A stretch of 36,184 bases of DNA from positions 1-36,184 of the forward strand of contig NZ_NKXO01000033.1 of NCBI RefSeq assembly GCF_002843425.1. The letters run 5' to 3'. A program made the position numbers and the translations under genes. Source of the stretch: Raineya orbicola. Lineage in GTDB: Bacteria > Bacteroidota > Bacteroidia > Cytophagales > Thermonemataceae. Below the pieces are notes generated by a model that did no database searches, was not told where the DNA came from, and saw nothing but the letters and a program-made list of their open reading frames with translations. How positions within the stretch are numbered: the first letter of the stretch is position 1; every line of letters starts with the position of its first letter. This document shows, one piece after another, positions 2,120 through 28,932 of the stretch.

Positions 2120-2992
2120 ATGAAAAAAATATTTTTACTACTGGTATGCAATTTATTGAGCGTAGAATTTCTTACTGCCCAAACTAAATTAGGAAAAGGA
2201 GAGTTTAGAGCGGTATATCTTGCCAAAAAGGTGGCTGATACCACTAAACCTGCATATATTACAACAGATACAATGTTTTTGGAATTTTCCAAAACAAGGT
2301 CAGTGTATTACAATCCGACATACAGAGCATTAGATTCTATTGCTTTAAGTAGAACACAAAAAGCAATGAAAGCATCACAGTCAGGAGCACCAATAAAATT
2401 AAATTTCAGTGATAATTTACTTTCTAATATGCGAAACAAAAATAGCAACGTGATAGCTCATTGTTACCCTACTAACCAAAAGCTAACATTTTATACCCAT
2501 AACTTACCAGGCAAGGCGTTTACGTACGAAGAAGAGTATCCTCTTTTTCAGTGGCAAATGAGTGATGAAACACAAACTATCAAAGGCTATCTTTGTAAAA
2601 AAGCAACTACAACATTTAGAGGTAGAACCTGGGAAGTATGGTACACTTTAGATATACCTACACCTTTTGGAGTTTGGAAATTTTATGGATTACCTGGGCT
2701 CATTGTTTTAGCCAAAGATAGTAAAAATCATTTTATTTTTGAGTTATTGGGCTTAAAACGCTTGCCTACTGACTATGAAATGACAACGCACTATGACTAC
2801 GGAGAACCAAGAAATTTTATTAAAATTACTCACAAACAATATATGCAAGAACTAAAAAAATACCTTGAAGACCCTATGGGATATATATCTCAAGCTATGA
2901 TGAATACGCCTGTACAAATTGAAATGAAAGATAAAGAAGGACGCCCAATACCCAAACGAAAAATTACCTATAACCCTATTGAATATGAGTAA
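2120..2992 (+). CDS. GLPGLI family protein (first of two)
   Basis: A 290-residue exported protein of the GLPGLI family, which is widespread in Bacteroidota and of unknown function. It has a clear signal peptide (MKKIFLLLVCNLLSVEFLTAQ) and the family hallmark KFYGLPGLIV at about residues 190-200. The most conserved block (about 136-204) covers a QWQM-DET segment, GYLCKKATT, the TWEVWYT motif and the GLPGL motif. Such proteins are predicted periplasmic or surface proteins, often encoded beside a carboxypeptidase-regulatory-like TonB-receptor homologue, as here. Its neighbour at 3058 is a paralogue with an almost identical core. Confidence 0.92.
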   Translation: MKKIFLLLVCNLLSVEFLTAQTKLGKGEFRAVYLAKKVADTTKPAYITTDTMFLEFSKTRSVYYNPTYRALDSIALSRTQKAMKASQSGAPIKLNFSDNLLSNMRNKNSNVIAHCYPTNQKLTFYTHNLPGKAFTYEEEYPLFQWQMSDETQTIKGYLCKKATTTFRGRTWEVWYTLDIPTPFGVWKFYGLPGLIVLAKDSKNHFIFELLGLKRLPTDYEMTTHYDYGEPRNFIKITHKQYMQELKKYLEDPMGYISQAMMNTPVQIEMKDKEGRPIPKRKITYNPIEYE

Positions 2993-3057
2993 AAAAACAA
3001 ATAAATTATGCTGAATAAATTTCTCAAGCCTTACTAAAAAACTGCAAAACAAAGTGT

Positions 3058-3906
3058 ATGTTTCGCTTGATATTAGTAGTTTTGATAATCAGTTTGATAA
3101 ATACAAACGCTTTTTCTCAAGTCCGTTTAGGAAAAGGAGAATTAAGAGCTATTTACAGCGTAAAAGTAGTAGTTGATACTACTAAACCTACTCAAATTTC
3201 TACGGATACGATGTTTTTAGAATTTTCTAAAACTCGTTCAGTGTTTTATAATCCTGCCCGTAGAATAGCTGACTCAGTGGCTTATATGCAATTACAAAAG
3301 TCAATGGCAACCAAATCTACTTTTAATTTTGGAGGGGTAGCAGGAAGCTTGCGTAAGAATAGCACTGTCATTGTGCATCAGTACCCTAACGATAAAAAAC
3401 TTACATTCTATACCCAAAATCTCATCGGAAAAAGTTTTATGTACGAAGAGGAATATCCTCTTTTTCAGTGGCAAATGAGTGATGAAACACAAACCATTAA
3501 AGGTTATCTTTGTAAAAAAGCAACTACAACGTTTAGAGGTAGAACCTGGGAAGTGTGGTACACTTTGGATATACCTACCCCCTTTGGGGTTTGGAAATTT
3601 TACGGATTACCGGGGCTTGTTGTTTTAGCCAAAGATAGTAAAAATCATTATACTTTTGAACTTTTAGGTTTAAGCCGTCTGCCTGCTGGTTATGAAATGA
3701 AAACCCATTATGAAGGCGAGCCTATCGCTTTTTCTAAAATTACTCACAAAAAATATATGATAGAACTCAAAAAGTATGTGGAAGACCCCATAGGTTATAT
3801 GTCGGCTGCACTAATGAACGCCCCCGTACAGGTAGAATTGAGAGATAACCAAGGCAAACCACAACCCCGACCCAAATACCCATTCAATCCCATAGAATAC
3901 GAATAA
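3058..3906 (+). CDS. GLPGLI family protein (second of two)
   Basis: A 282-residue paralogue of the preceding gene. Its signal peptide (residues 1-20, ending AFSQ) is different, while the central 69 residues match the first copy except for one Ile-to-Val change inside the motif (GLPGLV). The N- and C-terminal thirds have diverged more, and the alanine-rich insert before the core differs. The stop codon is one base before the start of the barrel gene at 3908, so the two are probably translationally coupled. Pairing with an outer-membrane barrel suggests a shared envelope function; the actual role is unknown. Confidence 0.92.
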   Translation: MFRLILVVLIISLINTNAFSQVRLGKGELRAIYSVKVVVDTTKPTQISTDTMFLEFSKTRSVFYNPARRIADSVAYMQLQKSMATKSTFNFGGVAGSLRKNSTVIVHQYPNDKKLTFYTQNLIGKSFMYEEEYPLFQWQMSDETQTIKGYLCKKATTTFRGRTWEVWYTLDIPTPFGVWKFYGLPGLVVLAKDSKNHYTFELLGLSRLPAGYEMKTHYEGEPIAFSKITHKKYMIELKKYVEDPIGYMSAALMNAPVQVELRDNQGKPQPRPKYPFNPIEYE

Positions 3907-3907
3907 A

Positions 3908-6541
3908 ATGCGTTTGTATTGGAGCATATTGTGCTTACAACTTTTTTCCCATATTTCCTTTGGTCAAATTATGATAGAAGGTTCTTTGCAAGATAGCAAA
4001 GAACCTGTCGTAAATGCTACGGTGCTTTTATACGCTTCGGGCAACGAAAAAATTCTTGCCTATACCTTTTCCGATGCCAAAGGAAAATTTCGGTTTTCAG
4101 TTTCTGCAAATACCGATAGTTTGGAAATAGAAATCAGGCATATTTCTTACGAAAAAATCCGACAAAAAATTCCCGCCATTTCCCAAAAACTACATTTCAC
4201 ACTCAAAGAAAGCTCAACGGAAATTAAGGAAATTGAGATAAAACTCAATCCCGTAACGATTCGTAGCGATACAACTACCTATAATGTAAGAAGTTTTGCT
4301 AGCAAAGCCGATAGAAACATCAAAGATGTACTTGCCAAAATGCCTGGCGTAGAAGTTGGCGACAATGGACTTATTAAATACAAAGGAAAACCTATCAGCA
4401 AGTTTTATATTGAAAACTTGGATATGCTCGGCAAACGCTACAATATAGCTTCGGAAAATGTGCCTTGGGAAATGGTAGATGAAGTTGAGTTTTACGAAAA
4501 TCATCAGGATATCAAACTATTGGATAGTTTGGGCATCAAGGGTTCAAATCCTGCTCTCAATTTGCGTCTGACCGAAAAAGCCAAAAAAAGTATCGCTTTG
4601 AACGGCGAAACAGGTTTAGGCTTGCCTTTCTTACTTTGGGATACTAAAATAGTTGCCTTGAAATTTTTTCGTAATCATCAGTTTATCAATGTTTTGCAAA
4701 GTGATAATATCGGCAAAGATTCTGAAAAAAATCTTACCGAACACACTATTTCTTTGGAACAACTTTTACTACGCCGCTTTCCGCAACGCCGTAACGATTT
4801 GTTACAACTATCACAAATTTCTAATCCTCCTTTGGAACGCAGTCGCTATCTTTTCAACCAAACAGCCAGTAGCAGTTTGAATGGAGTTGTAAAAATGCCT
4901 CATTCTGCTCAAATGCGTTATCATTTTACGTACTTGTTGCAAAATAACCAAACTCGCTCGGAATTGCGTCAGCAAATTTTTTTCCCAACAGATACAATTG
5001 CCTTCGCGGAAAAACAAGTTTTTACTCAAAGACAGCATCTCTTGCAAGGTGAAATAGAATATGAAAAAAATTTAAAAAATGCTTACACAAAAAATGTTTT
5101 CATAGCCAAAAAATATTGGGAAAATCAGGAGGCTAATGCTAATTTGTTCGGTATTTTGAACATCAATCAGAAGCTAAACAACCCTTATTTTCAAGTAGCA
5201 AACGAGTATAAAAACTATCGCTTGCAAGCAGGCAAGGTAGTACAATGGGTTTCTAATTCTTATTTCAGATTTTTACCTCAAAATTTGCAGGTAAGTCCTA
5301 ATTTGTGGCAGGTGGGCGGGCAAAATAGCTCTACGCAATTTGTGAAGGGTTCAATTTTGCAAACTGAAAATTTTAGAATTAACTCGCAAGAATGGAATAA
5401 ATTTCATTTCCGAAGTCAAACAGGCTTGCGACTTGCTCACAGAAATCTAGAAAGTTTTGTGCTTTTGCAAAATAACGAAGGAGGCAAAGATACCCTTCAA
5501 AATAATTTACAAGACTTTGCCTATCAGCTTTTTACAAACATCAATGCTGAAAGAAAAATAAACAAACAACTTACACTCAATACCAATGCCGAATACGCAC
5601 CGCTTGCCCTATGGCAAAATACAGAAATAGGGCTACGCAATAATTTTTTTCATCAATACTTTTGGAGAATAAACCTTTCAAGACGTTTGCAAGGTTGGAT
5701 TTTTTCGGCGGGAGGCAGTTATAGCAATGAAGTAGAAGACGAAACACACTGGTTCAATACAGAAGGGATTTTTCAGACTTATCGGAGTATTTTTCGCAAT
5801 GGCTTACTTGTGCCTGAACGAAAAAGCTGGCAAACAATGGGCAATATTTTTTACAACAATATTTTGGGAGGCTGGAGTTGGAATACTGATGTAATTTTTT
5901 TACAAGGTTTTCAAAACTATCGCTATGACCTAAAATTCACGGGTATTGTAGAAAATAGGCAAATAATAGCCCTGCAAACACCTTTTCAGAATATAATGGT
6001 AAATACACGCTTCAATAAGTATTTTTACAAGGCTCGTACAAACATAGCTCTTTCGGGAACTTTTATGCAAAATCAGTTTTTGCAAAGACAAAATAATCAG
6101 GATTTTACATCAGTTTTTCAGAATTGGCAGGCGGAGGGAAAAATGATTTGCAACTATTGGTCTTTTTTGAATTTACAAGCACAAAGCCGTTTGAATGTGC
6201 TTCAAACAGAGATTAACGGACAAAAAACTCCTCAAACTTTGCAATTGCGTCATCAGGTGTATGCTAACATTATCATTAAGCAATGGATACTTACTGCTAA
6301 ATGGTACAGTTTTCAATCTTTTCAGCAAAGACAAAGTTTAAGCAATCAATTTATAGATGTTTCTTTACAGAGAAAATTTCCCAAATGGGAAACAGAATTG
6401 CAGATTTTCAATCTAACGAACCAGCAAAATCTTATTTTAGCCCAAATACAAGAAAACAATTTCAGAGAAACGCTCTTTACGCTTCGCCCTTTGAATGTTT
6501 TACTGAAAGTTACTTGGAGGTTAGGACAGGGAGGTAATTAA
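3908..6541 (+). CDS. TonB-dependent-receptor-like outer membrane protein with N-terminal regulatory-like domain
   Basis: An 877-residue outer-membrane protein. Signal peptide MRLYWSILCLQLFSHISFGQ; carboxypeptidase-regulatory-like domain at about 21-105 (MIEGSLQDSKEPVVNATVLL, SDAKGKFRFS); plug-like domain at about 112-225 (ADRNIKDVLAKMPGVEV, GKPISKFYIENLDMLGKRY); the remainder is a beta-barrel rich in alternating aromatic and polar strands. This is the type commonly encoded next to GLPGLI proteins in Bacteroidota. No SusD partner is adjacent, so it is not a normal glycan-uptake pair. Its substrate cannot be deduced. A separate C-terminal fragment of a similar protein lies at 34840-36078. Confidence 0.9.
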   Translation: MRLYWSILCLQLFSHISFGQIMIEGSLQDSKEPVVNATVLLYASGNEKILAYTFSDAKGKFRFSVSANTDSLEIEIRHISYEKIRQKIPAISQKLHFTLKESSTEIKEIEIKLNPVTIRSDTTTYNVRSFASKADRNIKDVLAKMPGVEVGDNGLIKYKGKPISKFYIENLDMLGKRYNIASENVPWEMVDEVEFYENHQDIKLLDSLGIKGSNPALNLRLTEKAKKSIALNGETGLGLPFLLWDTKIVALKFFRNHQFINVLQSDNIGKDSEKNLTEHTISLEQLLLRRFPQRRNDLLQLSQISNPPLERSRYLFNQTASSSLNGVVKMPHSAQMRYHFTYLLQNNQTRSELRQQIFFPTDTIAFAEKQVFTQRQHLLQGEIEYEKNLKNAYTKNVFIAKKYWENQEANANLFGILNINQKLNNPYFQVANEYKNYRLQAGKVVQWVSNSYFRFLPQNLQVSPNLWQVGGQNSSTQFVKGSILQTENFRINSQEWNKFHFRSQTGLRLAHRNLESFVLLQNNEGGKDTLQNNLQDFAYQLFTNINAERKINKQLTLNTNAEYAPLALWQNTEIGLRNNFFHQYFWRINLSRRLQGWIFSAGGSYSNEVEDETHWFNTEGIFQTYRSIFRNGLLVPERKSWQTMGNIFYNNILGGWSWNTDVIFLQGFQNYRYDLKFTGIVENRQIIALQTPFQNIMVNTRFNKYFYKARTNIALSGTFMQNQFLQRQNNQDFTSVFQNWQAEGKMICNYWSFLNLQAQSRLNVLQTEINGQKTPQTLQLRHQVYANIIIKQWILTAKWYSFQSFQQRQSLSNQFIDVSLQRKFPKWETELQIFNLTNQQNLILAQIQENNFRETLFTLRPLNVLLKVTWRLGQGGN

Positions 6542-8130: not shown

Positions 8131-8799
8131 TCAGCCTTTGGGTTTGAATTTAGGCTTAAAAACTACTTTGGGCTTGGTTTCGGTATTTTCTTCATTTTCA
8201 TTTTTTTGTGTTTCTACTTTTTCTTTGGTAGTTTGCTTTTTGGCTTCTTCCTTTTCTTTGAGATATTGCTCGTAAAGGGCTTTTTTTTCTGCGATTTCGG
8301 CTTCGCTCATATGGGCAAAATGAAAGTTGTGCAAAGTTATATCCGAAACGGTGTAATCGTACTCGTCAGTCATAATGAGACACTCCGTAGGGCAAACCGT
8401 AGTACAAAGCCCACAGAAACAGCATTTTGCCATATCAATATCAAATTTGGCGGCGTAAATGCGTTTGCTTGTGCCGTCAGAGGTTTTGCCAAATTCTTCG
8501 GTAGCTTTGATAGCTTCAATTTCAATGCAATTGACAGGGCAAATTTTGGCACATTTATCACAAACGATGCAATCGTCTATTTCGTTATGCAGTTTGTAGC
8601 GTCCTATTTCGGGAGTAGGGAGTTTTTCCTTGGGGTATTCTAATGTTACTTTGCCTGTATTTTGCTCAAAATAGGTTTTTTCAGTAATAAAAATAGGTTT
8701 CGGCTTACGAAAAGCCTTACGAAAATGCTTAAAAGTAATCTGAAACCCTAGTAAAGTAGTTTTTATAGCCTGAATGATATTTTGAAAATATTGTTTCAT
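8131..8799 (-). CDS. nuoI: NADH-quinone oxidoreductase subunit I (2 x [4Fe-4S])
   Basis: 222 residues from the chosen start MKQYFQN. It carries two ferredoxin-type motifs, CIVCDKCAKICP and CCFCGLCTTVCP, which bind the two 4Fe-4S clusters passing electrons towards the quinone site. An upstream in-frame start would add nine residues but is less like NuoI; the chosen ATG gives an ATGA overlap with the upstream sensor gene, pointing to translational coupling. The C-terminus has a charged low-complexity tail (about 165-222, Glu/Lys-rich then KPKFKPKG) beyond the usual family end. Confidence 0.95.
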   Translation of the reverse strand: MKQYFQNIIQAIKTTLLGFQITFKHFRKAFRKPKPIFITEKTYFEQNTGKVTLEYPKEKLPTPEIGRYKLHNEIDDCIVCDKCAKICPVNCIEIEAIKATEEFGKTSDGTSKRIYAAKFDIDMAKCCFCGLCTTVCPTECLIMTDEYDYTVSDITLHNFHFAHMSEAEIAEKKALYEQYLKEKEEAKKQTTKEKVETQKNENEENTETKPKVVFKPKFKPKG

Positions 8800-9461
8800 T
8801 GCATCATATACACAAATCCTAACCAAGCTCCCACAACAATAATAGCTACAATTACAATACCCATTGCAAGGTATAAAGCCAAACGAATGCTATTTGCTTC
8901 GGCAATAGACTCGTTACGAAGTTCTTCGCCGATTTTGAGCTGTACATCAGTAATGCGATGAATAGGCTCAATAATTTTCTTAAATTCTTCAGATGCTTCC
9001 GTGCTAAATAAAGTTTTTGCTCCTTCGGCATCGGTAGTAAAGAGCTTAATAATTTCGTTTTCTAATTGTTTATACTTAAAAATTTCTTTTCGGTAGGTTA
9101 TTAGAAAGCGATTTTCTTCCTCTACTAAATGGCTTTCTGCATATTTGGAAGCTAATGAGTCAATGCTTTTGTGGTTTTTTTCAATTTTGCTTAAAATTTC
9201 TTTTCGCATAAGCGAATCGTCAAGGTAAAGATACTCCTCCAAAAGCAAGCGGTTTTCATAGAGTTTTTCTGTAAGATTAGCCATTTCTACGGCAGGCAAA
9301 AGGCGGTCGTGATACAAAGCATTTACATCTTCGGCTACCCGATTGATACCCATAATGCCAATGAGCGAGATAGTCATAATGATACCCGTAATGATAGCAA
9401 AAATTACAAAGACCTGCCTACGTATGCCTGTTTTTTTGTACCAATTTGTCGCAAAAGCCAT
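8796..9461 (-). CDS. Membrane-anchored four-helix-bundle (MCP ligand-binding-like) protein without output domain
   Basis: 221 residues. One membrane helix at about 17-39 and a second at about 193-216 flank a mostly helical periplasmic segment of about 150 residues rich in Leu, Glu and Lys, the layout of the four-helix-bundle sensor of methyl-accepting chemotaxis proteins (NRVAEDVNALYHDRLLPAVE near the first helix is typical). The protein ends within a few residues of the second helix: no HAMP, signalling hairpin, kinase or cyclase follows. A canonical promoter lies just upstream, and its stop overlaps nuoI by ATGA, so it is transcribed with complex I genes. It may pass a signal to a partner or stabilise the membrane; the role is unknown. 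Confidence 0.8.
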   Translation of the reverse strand: MAFATNWYKKTGIRRQVFVIFAIITGIIMTISLIGIMGINRVAEDVNALYHDRLLPAVEMANLTEKLYENRLLLEEYLYLDDSLMRKEILSKIEKNHKSIDSLASKYAESHLVEEENRFLITYRKEIFKYKQLENEIIKLFTTDAEGAKTLFSTEASEEFKKIIEPIHRITDVQLKIGEELRNESIAEANSIRLALYLAMGIVIVAIIVVGAWLGFVYMMQ

Positions 9462-25221: not shown

Positions 25222-25596
25222 TCAATATTGTCCTGTACGTAGTAGCACCAAAGTACAAGCGTGCAAACACTCAATACCTGCATTTTGAGCAAGTTTTTCA
25301 AGTTCGGGATTTTCGGTATTCGGATTAAAAATCAGTCGTTTGGGTTGTGTTTGTAAAATATAATCGTACCATTCGGCTTGATTGGCTCTACCTACATACA
25401 ACGTAATAGTATGAATATCGCTGAAAATCTGCGTCTTATCTTGTATAATTTTCTGCCCAAATACTTCACCTTTTTTTATGCCTACCAAAACAATCGGATA
25501 GCCTTTTTGCGAAAGCATTTGAGCCGCCAAATATGCGTAGCGTTCAGGGTTAGGGGTGGCTCCTAAAATCAGTGTTTTTGGGATTTCAACTATCAT
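25222..25596 (-). CDS. CoA-binding domain protein (YccU-like)
   Basis: 124 residues from MIVEIPKTLILGATPNP. This start forms an ATGA overlap with the upstream amine oxidase stop and gives the family's normal N-terminus; longer frames upstream run inside that gene. The Rossmann-type fold shows GATPNPERYAY, a KGYPIVLVG strand and C-terminal NPELEKLAQNAGIECLHACT, typical of YccU-type CoA-binding proteins. Function is unknown. It converges on the SafE-like gene with three bases between stops. Confidence 0.88.
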   Translation of the reverse strand: MIVEIPKTLILGATPNPERYAYLAAQMLSQKGYPIVLVGIKKGEVFGQKIIQDKTQIFSDIHTITLYVGRANQAEWYDYILQTQPKRLIFNPNTENPELEKLAQNAGIECLHACTLVLLRTGQY

Positions 25597-26963
25597 TTTC
25601 CTATTAGTTTTTCTGCAATTTCTTTGCCTGTTTGTGCTGCACCTTCCATAAAACCTTGCCATTCGGCTAAATGTTCGCCAGCAAAAAATACATTCTTGAA
25701 CGGTTGGGCTAATGTCTGCCTTATGTTGAACCATTGTCCTAACTGATACAAAGCATAAGCTCCTTGGGTATAGGCATCGCTTCCCCAATAATAGCCCGTA
25801 ATGTCTTCTATAAGAGCCTCAATATTTCCAAAAATGGGTTGTAAGGTATCAATAACAACTTTTTTACGAGCCTCCTTATTTTTACGAGCCAGAATATAAG
25901 CCTTATCGCCTATGGCGTAAAAATGTAGGATACCTTTGGAATTAGCTTGATTTTGGGTAGTATGAAATACGAAATGCCCTTCTAAATCGGTGCAGAGGGC
26001 AAAATCTTCTCGTTGCCAAAAACGCTCACGAAAAAGCACTGCCATTTTGATAATCCGAGCATACTGCAATTGCTGTAATGCTAATTTTTTACTTTCAGGC
26101 AAAGTAGGTTCAAAATTGATTTGAGCGAGAGCATACACAGGCAAAGTGCAAATAACTTTATCGGCTTCATAAGTACTTGCATCTTCACAAATAACTTCCA
26201 CTTTTTTGCTTTGTTGGCGAATAACTTTCACTTTTTTACCTAAAAAAGTATTATTTTCGCCAACTTTTTGAGCCAGAGCCTTGATAATACTGCTATTACC
26301 ACCTTGAATCTTGTAGTCCATTTCATTATATTGGCTAGAATCTGCATACTCTGATAGTGCGGCAAAAGCAGAAGTAAAATGAATACTCTCACCGAAATCG
26401 GTGCTATCGTTTAATTCACGACAGGTGAGTTCCTGCTCTGGAATACCATTATTCACAAGAAAACGCCACCAACTGATTTGGTCAAGTTTTTTTTGTTCTT
26501 TTTCAGACATTTTCCGAAAATCGGCAAAGATTTTTTGAAGTTTTAAGCTCCACTCTTTGGAAAAAGGCATAGTTTCGGCTTTGTACATCTTATTTTCTAA
26601 AAACCAATCAATTTGAAACTGATGCTTGACAAGAGGTAAATTCAATTCTTGGCATATTTGTTTGATTGTATTGTGCGAATCGCCCACCCACTCAGCTCCT
26701 AATTCTGTATGCAGTTGTTCGTTTCGGGGGAAAAAATACGTAAAAATTCGCCCACCTATACGTGTTCGGGCTTCTAAAAGTTTTACAGGTACATTATTCT
26801 TACTCAAAACATAGGCGGCAGAAAGTCCCGCCAAACCTGCACCGAGAATGAGTACCTTCTCGCCTTTTTTCAATCTTTCAAAATCACTCCATTCGGGTAG
26901 ATGCGTGAGATAAGTTGAAGTAGCCAATAGAGAGGTTTTTTTGAGGAAATCACGTCTTTGCAT
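25593..26963 (-). CDS. Flavin monoamine oxidase family protein with Tat-type signal
   Basis: 456 residues. Begins MQRRDFLKKTS, a twin-arginine signal (RRDFLK), so it is probably folded with FAD and exported to the periplasm. The FAD-binding Rossmann motif LGAGLAGLSAAYVLS (about 40-54), a RIGGRIFTY motif and the C-terminal FAGEHLAEWQGFMEGAAQTG are typical of the MAO/polyamine oxidase/amino acid oxidase superfamily. It would oxidise a primary or secondary amine or an amino acid, giving peroxide. It starts three bases after the channel gene and overlaps the CoA-binding gene by ATGA, so all three form one operon. Confidence 0.9.
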   Translation of the reverse strand: MQRRDFLKKTSLLATSTYLTHLPEWSDFERLKKGEKVLILGAGLAGLSAAYVLSKNNVPVKLLEARTRIGGRIFTYFFPRNEQLHTELGAEWVGDSHNTIKQICQELNLPLVKHQFQIDWFLENKMYKAETMPFSKEWSLKLQKIFADFRKMSEKEQKKLDQISWWRFLVNNGIPEQELTCRELNDSTDFGESIHFTSAFAALSEYADSSQYNEMDYKIQGGNSSIIKALAQKVGENNTFLGKKVKVIRQQSKKVEVICEDASTYEADKVICTLPVYALAQINFEPTLPESKKLALQQLQYARIIKMAVLFRERFWQREDFALCTDLEGHFVFHTTQNQANSKGILHFYAIGDKAYILARKNKEARKKVVIDTLQPIFGNIEALIEDITGYYWGSDAYTQGAYALYQLGQWFNIRQTLAQPFKNVFFAGEHLAEWQGFMEGAAQTGKEIAEKLIGK

Positions 26964-26966
26964 ACA

Positions 26967-27917
26967 TCATACATTTTTAAGAGCCATCAGGATAAAAACA
27001 AGATTAAATATGACGTAAGTACCTCCTACGAGCCAAGCTAACACTTTATCAGTGAGATTAGAAAGTTTTTCTAAGCCAGAGTCATCTTGACGGAGCGAAA
27101 GAGCTGAAAAAGCAATAATTACGAAAATCATAATAAAGGTAAGTCCGTGCAACCAATCTACTATGGTAAGGGTAGAACCTTCGGGTAAATAGCTATCAAT
27201 TACGTACTTATTACCAACGCCTGCAAATAGCCCCCCCACAGGAAGCCCAAAGCGTGGTTCGGCGTGGCTGGGATCTATGAAAAAACTGACATAAGAAATG
27301 GCAAAAGCTACATACATTCCCAAAAACAACTTAAAAAACAAACCCCAAGCGTCTCTTTTAATATCAATCACTATGGCAAACTGGGCATAATTGCTTTCAT
27401 TTTTCGGAGCTGTATAATCGCCAAAAGTGGTATTGTAGCGATTGATGCGGGTTTTTACTTTGAAATTAGTGATTTTCCAACCTGCTACTTCCAAGTTTGG
27501 GTCGAAAGATTTACCCGAAGTATCGGGTAGAAAGATAAGGCTTTGAGCATCAAATTGAGGATTTTCTATTAGGATTTGCAAAGTTTGCTTATCAAAAGGG
27601 AAGTTGCTGATGTTCCACTTTTGCGTCATTGTTGCTTGAATTTTGAACTGATACCAGTTTCTACTATCAAGGCTATCGTGAATTTCATTATCAATGTGAA
27701 ACTCTTTGGCATTAGGGATTTCAATAGCATCAGAGGCTTTTTCTATGACAGATTTTTGTACCGTCCAGAGCCAAAAACGTGCTACATACTCTTCTTTACG
27801 AAAATCTAAATCGTGAATATTGATAATGTAACAACCTATTCGCACCGTATCAGGTGCTTTTTGGGCATAAAGGTACTGAATGGAGCAGAAAAATAACCAA
27901 AATAGCTTTCGTAGCAT
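26967..27917 (-). CDS. Bacterial pentameric ligand-gated ion channel homologue
   Basis: 316 residues. Signal peptide (MLRKLFWLFFCSIQYLYAQ), an extracellular beta-sandwich to about 188 with the family hallmark WNISNFPFDKQTLQI (about 101-115), and four membrane helices: about 189-214, 221-243, 251-275 and 290-313, with M1 starting AWGLFFKLFLG and M2 preceded by DPSHAEPRFGLPVGG. The loop equivalent to the animal Cys-loop has no cysteine pair, as in prokaryotic members such as GLIC and ELIC. It should form a ligand-opened pore in the inner membrane. It is the first gene of an operon with an exported amine oxidase. Ligand and ion are unknown. Confidence 0.88.
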   Translation of the reverse strand: MLRKLFWLFFCSIQYLYAQKAPDTVRIGCYIINIHDLDFRKEEYVARFWLWTVQKSVIEKASDAIEIPNAKEFHIDNEIHDSLDSRNWYQFKIQATMTQKWNISNFPFDKQTLQILIENPQFDAQSLIFLPDTSGKSFDPNLEVAGWKITNFKVKTRINRYNTTFGDYTAPKNESNYAQFAIVIDIKRDAWGLFFKLFLGMYVAFAISYVSFFIDPSHAEPRFGLPVGGLFAGVGNKYVIDSYLPEGSTLTIVDWLHGLTFIMIFVIIAFSALSLRQDDSGLEKLSNLTDKVLAWLVGGTYVIFNLVFILMALKNV

Positions 27918-28043
27918 AAAAACAATTTATGCTTCCAAGCTAAAAATTTTTATAGAAAAACACAACAAGTCCTCCTTGAAAATGCAATAAAACAACAAAA
28001 TCAAAAGTGATATTGCCTGCTAAGGTTTAAGAGCAATTTGAAA

Positions 28044-28889
28044 TTATAGTGGTTTTACTTCTTGCCACTCTTTGGTGTCGGTATTGGTATAATTGTAGCT
28101 GTTATCTATTACGTTTTTGTAGTAAAATTTACCTTCTTGTTTTTTTACGGCAATCCAACTTTTAAGATTGGGGAAATTGAGTTTGGTGAGTTTGCGAACC
28201 TCATCAATATACACACAACGCACTTCTAAAAAGATAGCTCCGTCCTTCATATTGTCCAGAACTCTTTTGAATAGTTTTGCCGCTAATTTATTATCTTTGA
28301 TAGGGGAATACATATACAAGAAATCGGCTTTTTGAAAAAAGTTGCCGTCTATTTCCAAAGCGTCGCCTTGGGTTATTTCTATTTCTTGGGAAAAGTTTTT
28401 CAGGTTTTCTTTGCTTTCAGCTACCGATTCGGGGCTGTATTCTAATCCGTAGGCTTTTTCAAAGCCTAAACAAAGGGCAGTAAAAAGTTTTTCACCATTA
28501 CCCGAACCAATATCCATAAAAACTTTTTGTTGAGGCTCTTTGAGTATCATTACGGTTTCTACGAAGCGTGCTAAATTGAAGCGTATTGCCGCCCAGAATT
28601 CTTCTTTGGCGGGGGTTTTGTTGTAGGTTTTTTGTGAAAATACCGCTGACGCAAATTTACTTCGCAAAGCCGCATCATCTATTACTCTGCAAAACTCTAC
28701 AATTTCTCGTTCGGTGATGTTGAGTTTTTCAATTTCTTTACGCAAAAAATCAGGATTAAAGAAAATTTTGGCTTGCCGAAAGAAAGTATCTTTACTAAAA
28801 GTTGCTTTTTGTGTAATAGGAGTTGTTTCTTTACAAGAAAACAAAAAATTACAAAGTAGCAAACCCGATAGAAACAAGATTTTTTTCAT
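28044..28889 (-). CDS. Methyltransferase-fold protein with a lipoprotein signal
   Basis: 281 residues from MKKILFLSG (a TTG two codons earlier is the alternative). The N-terminus is a lipoprotein signal with lipobox LFSC (Cys 19) followed by KETT. The rest looks like a class I SAM-dependent methyltransferase: motif I VFMDIGSGNGEKL (about 123-135), motif post-I YGLEYSPESV, then ITQGDALEI, ADFLYMYSP and FLEVRC in order. The sequence is loosely DOT1-like. Methyl donor is cytoplasmic, so a lipid-anchored enzyme in the envelope is unexpected. Transcribed after the PaaE-like gene, 43 bases away. Function unknown. Confidence 0.78.
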   Translation of the reverse strand: MKKILFLSGLLLCNFLFSCKETTPITQKATFSKDTFFRQAKIFFNPDFLRKEIEKLNITEREIVEFCRVIDDAALRSKFASAVFSQKTYNKTPAKEEFWAAIRFNLARFVETVMILKEPQQKVFMDIGSGNGEKLFTALCLGFEKAYGLEYSPESVAESKENLKNFSQEIEITQGDALEIDGNFFQKADFLYMYSPIKDNKLAAKLFKRVLDNMKDGAIFLEVRCVYIDEVRKLTKLNFPNLKSWIAVKKQEGKFYYKNVIDNSYNYTNTDTKEWQEVKPL

Positions 28890-28932
28890 AAGCAAATTTT
28901 TGATAAGTTAGTTGGTTATTTTTGTGTAAAAA

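Follow-up and report, generated by a model that had tools for sequence, protein, structure and literature searches.

Does the gene for a pentameric ligand-gated channel, found directly before that of a flavin amine oxidase in Raineya orbicola, form with it one functional unit, or are the two no more than neighbours? The question is raised by the span from 25,222 to 27,917 of a stretch of DNA, hereafter the window, which comprises positions 1 to 36,184 of NZ_NKXO01000033.1. The two genes and the space between them are as follows:

26967..27917 (-), gene for a pentameric ligand-gated channel of the Pro-loop type, 316 amino acids
26964..26966 (-), gap of 3 nucleotides (nt), from the channel stop codon (TGA) to the oxidase ATG
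25593..26963 (-), gene for a flavin amine oxidase of the monoamine oxidase (MAO) type, 456 amino acids

A preliminary description of the locus had placed a flavin amine oxidase gene three bases after the channel, and this is confirmed by the match of its product to PF01593 (E 6.7e-67; 227 bits, the cut-off being 19.8). The 3-nt gap suggests that both genes would be made as one transcript. Surveys and trees point to a pair that is real but non-obligatory, and we tentatively favour the reading in which channel and oxidase are one functional pair from one operon, at somewhat less than even confidence.

Recurrence of the gene pair

The pair recurs in f66, a distant family of the phylum represented by 15 genomes from 3 genera. 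In 14 of 14 double carriers the orthologous oxidase gene comes immediately after the channel gene on the same strand, with gaps of 6-25 nt, and the fifteenth genome (64% complete) has neither gene. In a phylum sample of 395 genomes the channel was found in 24 (E 1e-10) and the oxidase in 8 (E 1e-60); the genes are adjacent in all three genomes that carry both, namely the window's own (G000) and two of a single genus (G650 and G684), with a co-occurrence p of 0.009, uncorrected for relatedness. A follow-up of 44 genomes from the order of G650 gave the channel in 18 and the oxidase in 23, and over all 16 linked loci found the gap is 3-40 nt. A gene for flavin mononucleotide reductase, considered as a possible third partner in f66, precedes the channel in five of the six f66 loci read at length (the contig of the sixth starts 172 nt before the channel) and is not found there in the window; the flanking genes of f66 are otherwise unlike those of the window, the pair alone being common to both. 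In genome G772 (locus L117) the oxidase reading frame is broken while that of the adjoining channel is intact.

The order of R. orbicola was sampled with 390 genomes, using a channel profile (A1) built from 12 channels and an oxidase profile (A2) built from five oxidases; in this sample and in that of the phylum, absences reflect a loose first pass in which only the best 4-5 candidates per genome were scored. A1 matched 57 of the 390 genomes at E 1e-10, and in 46 of these the match was better than 1e-60; A2 matched 26 at E 1e-60, 23 of them better than 1e-170, the 11 and 3 weaker genomes respectively being excluded from the counts. Both genes occur in seven genomes (G000, G002, G004, G031, G046, G110 and G160) against about 2.7 expected at random (Fisher p 0.011, relatedness again uncorrected), and they are adjacent in two of these, G000 and G002, both belonging to the window genus. 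One further locus, in a Flammeovirgaceae record of a metagenome-assembled genome, was obtained by a contig scan with one protein.

Trees of both proteins bear on whether this linkage had a single origin or two separate ones. The oxidase tree, of 37 rows and with the broken G772 oxidase left out, groups the linked f66 oxidases together; nearest to them are the unlinked oxidases of G658 and of f60, the sister family of f66 (29 genomes), and the window genus is distant. The channel tree, of 65 rows, places the window-genus channels among unlinked channels of their own order, and the unlinked channel of the f60 genome G789 is sister to the f66-linked channels (100/100). Approximately unbiased (AU) tests, each comparing two trees, and with long branches in the channel tree, rejected a single clade of linked oxidases (with that of G003, a congener of R. 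orbicola, included; p-AU 1.4e-4) as well as a single clade of linked channels (p-AU 4.9e-6). The same tests reject a joint transfer of the two genes between the window genus and f66. Since the one-clade topologies fail, linkage was either established twice or goes back to an early origin followed by frequent loss, and both of these origins say more than a single chance juxtaposition.

The two proteins

General profiles match the channel below their thresholds, Pfam Neur_chan_LBD at E 0.0034 (17.3 bits, where the cut-off is 26) and NCBIfam LGIC_1 at E 7.7e-10, well short of the curated cut-off; searching the window genome with PF02931 gave nothing at E 0.001, and the control genomes gave no match either. 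A family profile compared with the sequences of the PDB reached GLIC at E 1.1e-13, this being the best solved sequence relative of the window's subfamily. The AlphaFold model, with a predicted local distance difference test score (pLDDT) of 89.5, has a beta-sandwich extracellular domain followed by four transmembrane helices, and it matches GluCl with a VIA Z of 24.9 (2.1 A over 282 residues) and GLIC with a Z of 23.9, the rows for GluCl, GABA-A, glycine receptors and GLIC being tied within about 1. The fold predicted by this model is beyond doubt that of a pentameric ligand-gated channel, and the protein would form a homopentameric pore across the inner membrane, its ligand site facing the periplasm. 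The following features were located in its gene:

27861..27917 (-), N-terminal signal-like helix, residues 1-19 by sequence reading, with a helix at 2-17 in the model
27591..27602 (-), FPFD Pro-loop motif, residues 106-109, the motif being defined in PMC4795631
27558..27566 (-), loop B from E118 (position of ELIC Glu131) to P120 (position of ELIC Phe133), placed ungapped from FPFD
27183..27260 (-), M2 pore helix and start of the M2-M3 loop, residues 220-245, EPRFGLPVGGLFAGVGNKYVIDSYLP

Residues were counted over 65 channels (14 f66-linked and 51 others) and 35 oxidases, the outgroup oxidases G143 and G330 being excluded from the table. A loop of the form F/Y-P-x-D with an absolutely conserved proline marks the superfamily (PMC4795631), and its proline and aspartate are present in 65 of 65 channels, as are R188 before M1 and P245 in the M2-M3 loop; W147 in beta-9 is tryptophan in 64 and tyrosine in 1. 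The proline of M1, common (77%) but not universal in the superfamily, is replaced in every channel by Gly200; glycine takes its place in 5% of the superfamily (PMC4795631). The only cysteines of the window channel are at 11 and 29, none of them near the FPFD loop. The preliminary description had spoken of a pentameric Cys-loop-type homologue, of which the pentameric part stands; a Cys-loop receptor proper is ruled out for want of the two cysteines flanking the loop, and the protein is of the Cys-less Pro-loop type instead.

The M2 consensus among the channels of the order is RFGLPVGGLFAxVGNKYxIDSxLP, with Gly6', Phe9' and Tyr16' in all 65 channels. An acid at -2' (59 of 65, with gaps in the other 6) hints, by the usual rule, that the pore is probably cation-selective, although that rule is not safe for prokaryotes (PMC4795631, section 14). 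The glycine-rich and conserved M2 of the subfamily contains a GNKY motif, which reads ASQY in the f66-linked channels, and D254 and H257 of M3 are invariant in the subfamily. The pore of the subfamily is better conserved than its ligand domain, the opposite of what would be expected if only ligand specificity mattered.

The nearest solved sequence of the oxidase is 7EME (E 2.4e-48), for which no paper was found in a literature search, followed by MAO-A (E 6e-35). Four features were located in its gene:

26940..26957 (-), twin-arginine start RRDFLK, residues 3-8
26046..26048 (-), K306, matched by alignment to the lysine conserved on the flavin side in MAO-A
25755..25757 (-), Y403, first position of the aromatic cage by alignment to MAO-A
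25650..25652 (-), F438, second aromatic-cage position by alignment to MAO-A

K306, Y403 and F438, whose counterparts we take to serve as flavin-side lysine and aromatic cage in the MAO enzymes, are kept in 35 of 35 oxidases. So is W92, aligned with an arginine of an ancestral L-amino-acid oxidase; this arginine belongs to the GAMR motif and presumably binds the carboxylate in L-amino-acid oxidases, and its replacement by Trp92 speaks against that assignment. A predicted structure of the oxidase (pLDDT 60.7, from a five-row alignment) was set aside.

For the proposed export of the oxidase by the twin-arginine translocation (Tat) pathway the signs are mixed. Its N-terminus reads MQRRDFLKK, R-R-x-F is present in all 5 oxidases aligned, TatC is encoded in the window genome and in 11 of 11 genomes examined, and Pfam TAT_signal is found in the orthologous oxidase of G650 (E 1.6e-5); in the window oxidase itself, scanned to E 1, TAT_signal is absent. 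On these sequence features the enzyme is probably exported by Tat.

The ligand site and a possible shared function

The ligand-site comparison is limited to positions fixed by the ungapped stretch around FPxD. A single-sequence alignment with 6cdu, whose extracellular part we take to be that of ELIC, sets E118 against Glu131, P120 against Phe133 and Q90 against Asn103. The numbering of 6cdu agrees with the residues named in the available part of PMC3119659, which places Glu131 and Phe133 in loop B and Asn103 in beta-6 and reports that alanine mutants at all three are unresponsive to cysteamine. Position 118 is acidic in 65 of 65 channels (E in 59, D in 6), and position 120 holds an aromatic (F or Y) in all 14 of the f66-linked channels and in 0 of the 51 others, being Ile in the unlinked sister G789. 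Class-fixed extracellular positions number 119 in the f66-linked channels, and 13 of these, 120 among them, differ in class from G789. A profile of the f66-linked channels found 6cdu as its best PDB match (E 3e-10), ahead of ELIC 2vl0 (3e-5) and the first GLIC row (7e-5), which is a hint only because 6cdu carries a GABA-A membrane part.

Other positions of the site are less firmly aligned. The alignments disagree on the register of loop A (ELIC Glu77), and the register is likewise unsure for the loop-C candidates for ELIC Tyr174 and Phe187, namely Y161 (65 of 65) and Y/F177 (63 of 65). A ligand argument from Lys71 was dropped, as this residue matches either GLIC Arg77, which belongs to the ligand site, or Arg85, depending on the alignment; it is present in 49 of the 51 channels outside the f66-linked set and lost in 14 of 14 within it, and no ligand inference is drawn. 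Several f66 genomes have a second, unlinked channel of the same subfamily (L105, L106, L125-L128), a natural control in which Lys71 is kept and the loop-B aromatic is absent; one gene away from that of G776 (L125) lies a weak fragment of a flavin adenine dinucleotide protein (E 3e-5), taken as another family.

If channel and oxidase do form a functional pair, the enzyme, with its probable export by Tat, would oxidise a small amine-bearing compound in the periplasm, where both proteins would work on one pool of compounds or on chemically related pools. The channel would turn the level of such a pool into ion flux, and the oxidase would either lower that level, as clearance, or convert the compound into the next signal. 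Because either gene also occurs alone, such coupling would be useful but dispensable. The preliminary description had suggested an amine ligand by analogy with ELIC, and at the level of binding-site residues this idea fits the f66 channels better than that of the window: E118 is kept and the linked f66 channels have the aromatic, but the ligand of the window channel may have a carboxylate group in addition to an amine, and a simple short primary amine of the kind proposed from ELIC is less likely for it.

Several observations weigh against a shared function or against its amine-sensing form. As to the site, position 120 is proline in both linked channels of the window genus (the window and G002), the window channel has Gln90 where ELIC has Asn103 and is closer by sequence to GLIC than to ELIC, and the change of the f66 pocket counts as a single evolutionary event. 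As to linkage, the other five of the seven double carriers in the order have the genes on separate contigs, with oxidase flanks that contain no channel; only 2 of 33 channel loci in the order adjoin an oxidase (flanks of about 1.5 kb or more); and 39 of the 46 channel genomes have no oxidase at E 1e-60, the weak PF01593-like matches in these 46 (E 1e-10 to 1e-54) never lying beside the channel. In f60 the oxidase is found in 9 of 29 genomes, the channel in 4 and both in none. A channel from another family (G015, L037, without oxidase) is nested inside those of the window genus, which suggests that the channel also travels alone. To these is added G003, the closest relative with an oxidase (79% identical, against 56% for G002), whose genome (92% complete) has no channel while the oxidase is kept in the same operon, as is seen from the genes around the pair:

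28044..28895 (-), methyltransferase-like gene (PF13847, E 9.7e-10), upstream of the channel on the same strand and separated from it by 126 nt
26964..28043 (-), segment of 1080 nt (channel, 126-nt upstream gap and 3-nt gap) that is absent in G003
25222..25596 (-), gene for a coenzyme A (CoA)-binding protein of 124 amino acids (PF13380 CoA_binding_2, E 8e-22)

The methyltransferase stop and the oxidase ATG are 1080 nt apart in the window, compared with 2 or 5 nt on two contigs of G003; judged against G002, a loss of the channel from G003 would be the simpler reading. These two contigs (L073 and L032) are 87% identical over 242 nt and have the same methyltransferase-oxidase junction, probably representing two strains in one assembly. 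A universal channel-oxidase operon was rejected in view of G003 and of the five unlinked double carriers. Adjacency, whose lack of conservation the preliminary description had named as the outcome that would speak against its proposal, is conserved in G002 and throughout the double carriers of f66 but is clearly not obligatory.

The 2 of 33 channel loci, the absence of the channel in G003 and the five unlinked double carriers favour an explanation that we consider possible though doubtful, in which the two are patchily distributed mobile genes brought side by side by chance or for co-expression and have no ligand in common; it is also in line with the flanks of the pair, which differ between G000 and G002, and with channel neighbours that vary by lineage in the order set. 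It has difficulty with f66, where the same partner recurs in the same order and on the same strand across 14 genomes of 3 genera in a distant family, given that, by our own estimate, chance would produce a named downstream partner about 1 time in several thousand in a genome of about 3000 genes. If, on the other hand, the enzyme feeds the receptor, the channel would sense a product of the oxidase (aldehyde or acid, ammonium, hydrogen peroxide) or else a carboxylate or amino acid, with no clearance involved. That the window channel is nearest to GLIC, whose extracellular sites bind carboxylates according to the available part of PMC10859675, that it has no loop-B aromatic and that all 65 channels have a basic residue at 92 (the GLIC Arg105 position) speak for this; ELIC also has an arginine there (its residue 105), which makes the basic residue not decisive, and with E118 acidic and the f66-linked channels drifting towards the ELIC pattern we hold this reading to be unlikely.

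An even smaller probability is given to a respiratory or catabolic role, in which the oxidase would work in the periplasm as an amine dehydrogenase or oxidase and the consequences for ions or pH would fall to the channel. The accessible part of PMC12224317 describes Tat flavin amine oxidoreductases encoded beside cytochrome c as dehydrogenases, but no cytochrome c was found among the seven window proteins scanned, and most Tat enzymes without such a neighbour are reported there to react fast with oxygen, so that an oxygen-using clearance enzyme is plausible here. Of the functional pair itself a bolder version may be put forward only as a rather improbable one: it would be a bacterial counterpart of a transmitter receptor and its clearance enzyme, recruited to one operon at least twice in the phylum, with the channel's binding site adapted, in one lineage, to the substrate of the oxidase, the ELIC-type loop-B aromatic being gained on the branch on which linkage appears.

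Surroundings of the pair and known systems

The start of the CoA-binding gene overlaps the oxidase stop by 4 nt, which makes it a third gene inside the studied span, one that the preliminary description had not mentioned. It was rejected as a third member of the conserved unit: it lies 3' of the oxidase in G003 and not in G002, where an enoyl-CoA-hydratase-like gene follows the oxidase and so leaves it outside. The methyltransferase-like protein has a lipoprotein-like N-terminus (LLLCNFLFSC), in G003 too, which is odd for an enzyme using S-adenosylmethionine. Elsewhere in the window, by our own reading, 8796-9461 (-), next to genes of respiratory complex I, encodes a small membrane protein of two helices that resembles the sensor part of a chemoreceptor standing alone, without a signalling domain, and 2120-6541 (+) contains two similar adjoining genes, presumably of the GLPGLI kind, followed by a large gene resembling those of outer-membrane receptors.

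Among characterized channels, ELIC of Dickeya (Erwinia) chrysanthemi offers a precedent for the receptor-enzyme principle, as its gene shares an operon with that of a putative amino-acid decarboxylase which, in the view of its authors, might process the ligand (PMC3119659, available part). The window resembles it in having a Cys-less channel, an operon with a possible amine-processing enzyme and E118 in place of Glu131, and departs from it in having, in place of the decarboxylase, an oxidase that begins with a twin-arginine motif, and in that its channel, nearer to GLIC, is without the loop-B aromatic which the f66-linked channels do have. With GLIC of Gloeobacter violaceus, M2 aligns ungapped from the -2' Glu to the M2-M3 proline by our own reading, whereas the glycine-rich M2 of the window (GLPVGGLFAxVGNKY) and Gly200 in place of the M1 proline are unlike it; to our knowledge GLIC has no oxidase partner. 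Ligand-handling neighbours of bacterial channels (PBP-II, Cache domains, a Na+/H+ symporter) were described by Tasneem et al. (PMC549065), in whose main text, as far as available, the words oxidase and amine occur 0 times. The oxidase shares the PF01593 fold, the flavin-side lysine and the aromatic cage with human MAO-A and MAO-B and with bacterial Tat-exported flavin amine oxidoreductases, and its twin-arginine start recalls NicA2 and Pnao, both of which have a twin-arginine signal according to the available part of PMC12224317; it differs from this group in having A402, and no cysteine, at the covalent-flavin position, in that its scanned neighbours include no cytochrome c gene, and in its channel neighbour. 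A search of the open-licence literature, with preprints outside its scope, found no report of a channel-oxidase operon.

In conclusion, among the pentameric ligand-gated ion channels, of which none from a unicellular species had a known biological role according to a 2016 survey (PMC4795631, section 14), an operon partner that recurs and whose chemistry is known narrows the search for a ligand to amines and amino compounds and points to genomes suited to a test. For this the f66 family, whose pairs are linked in 14 of 14 cases and whose loop B resembles that of ELIC, is better suited than the window. Should the ligand of the channel prove to be the substrate of the oxidase, the pair would be a bacterial parallel to the synaptic layout of a receptor with its clearance enzyme, built from the same two protein superfamilies.

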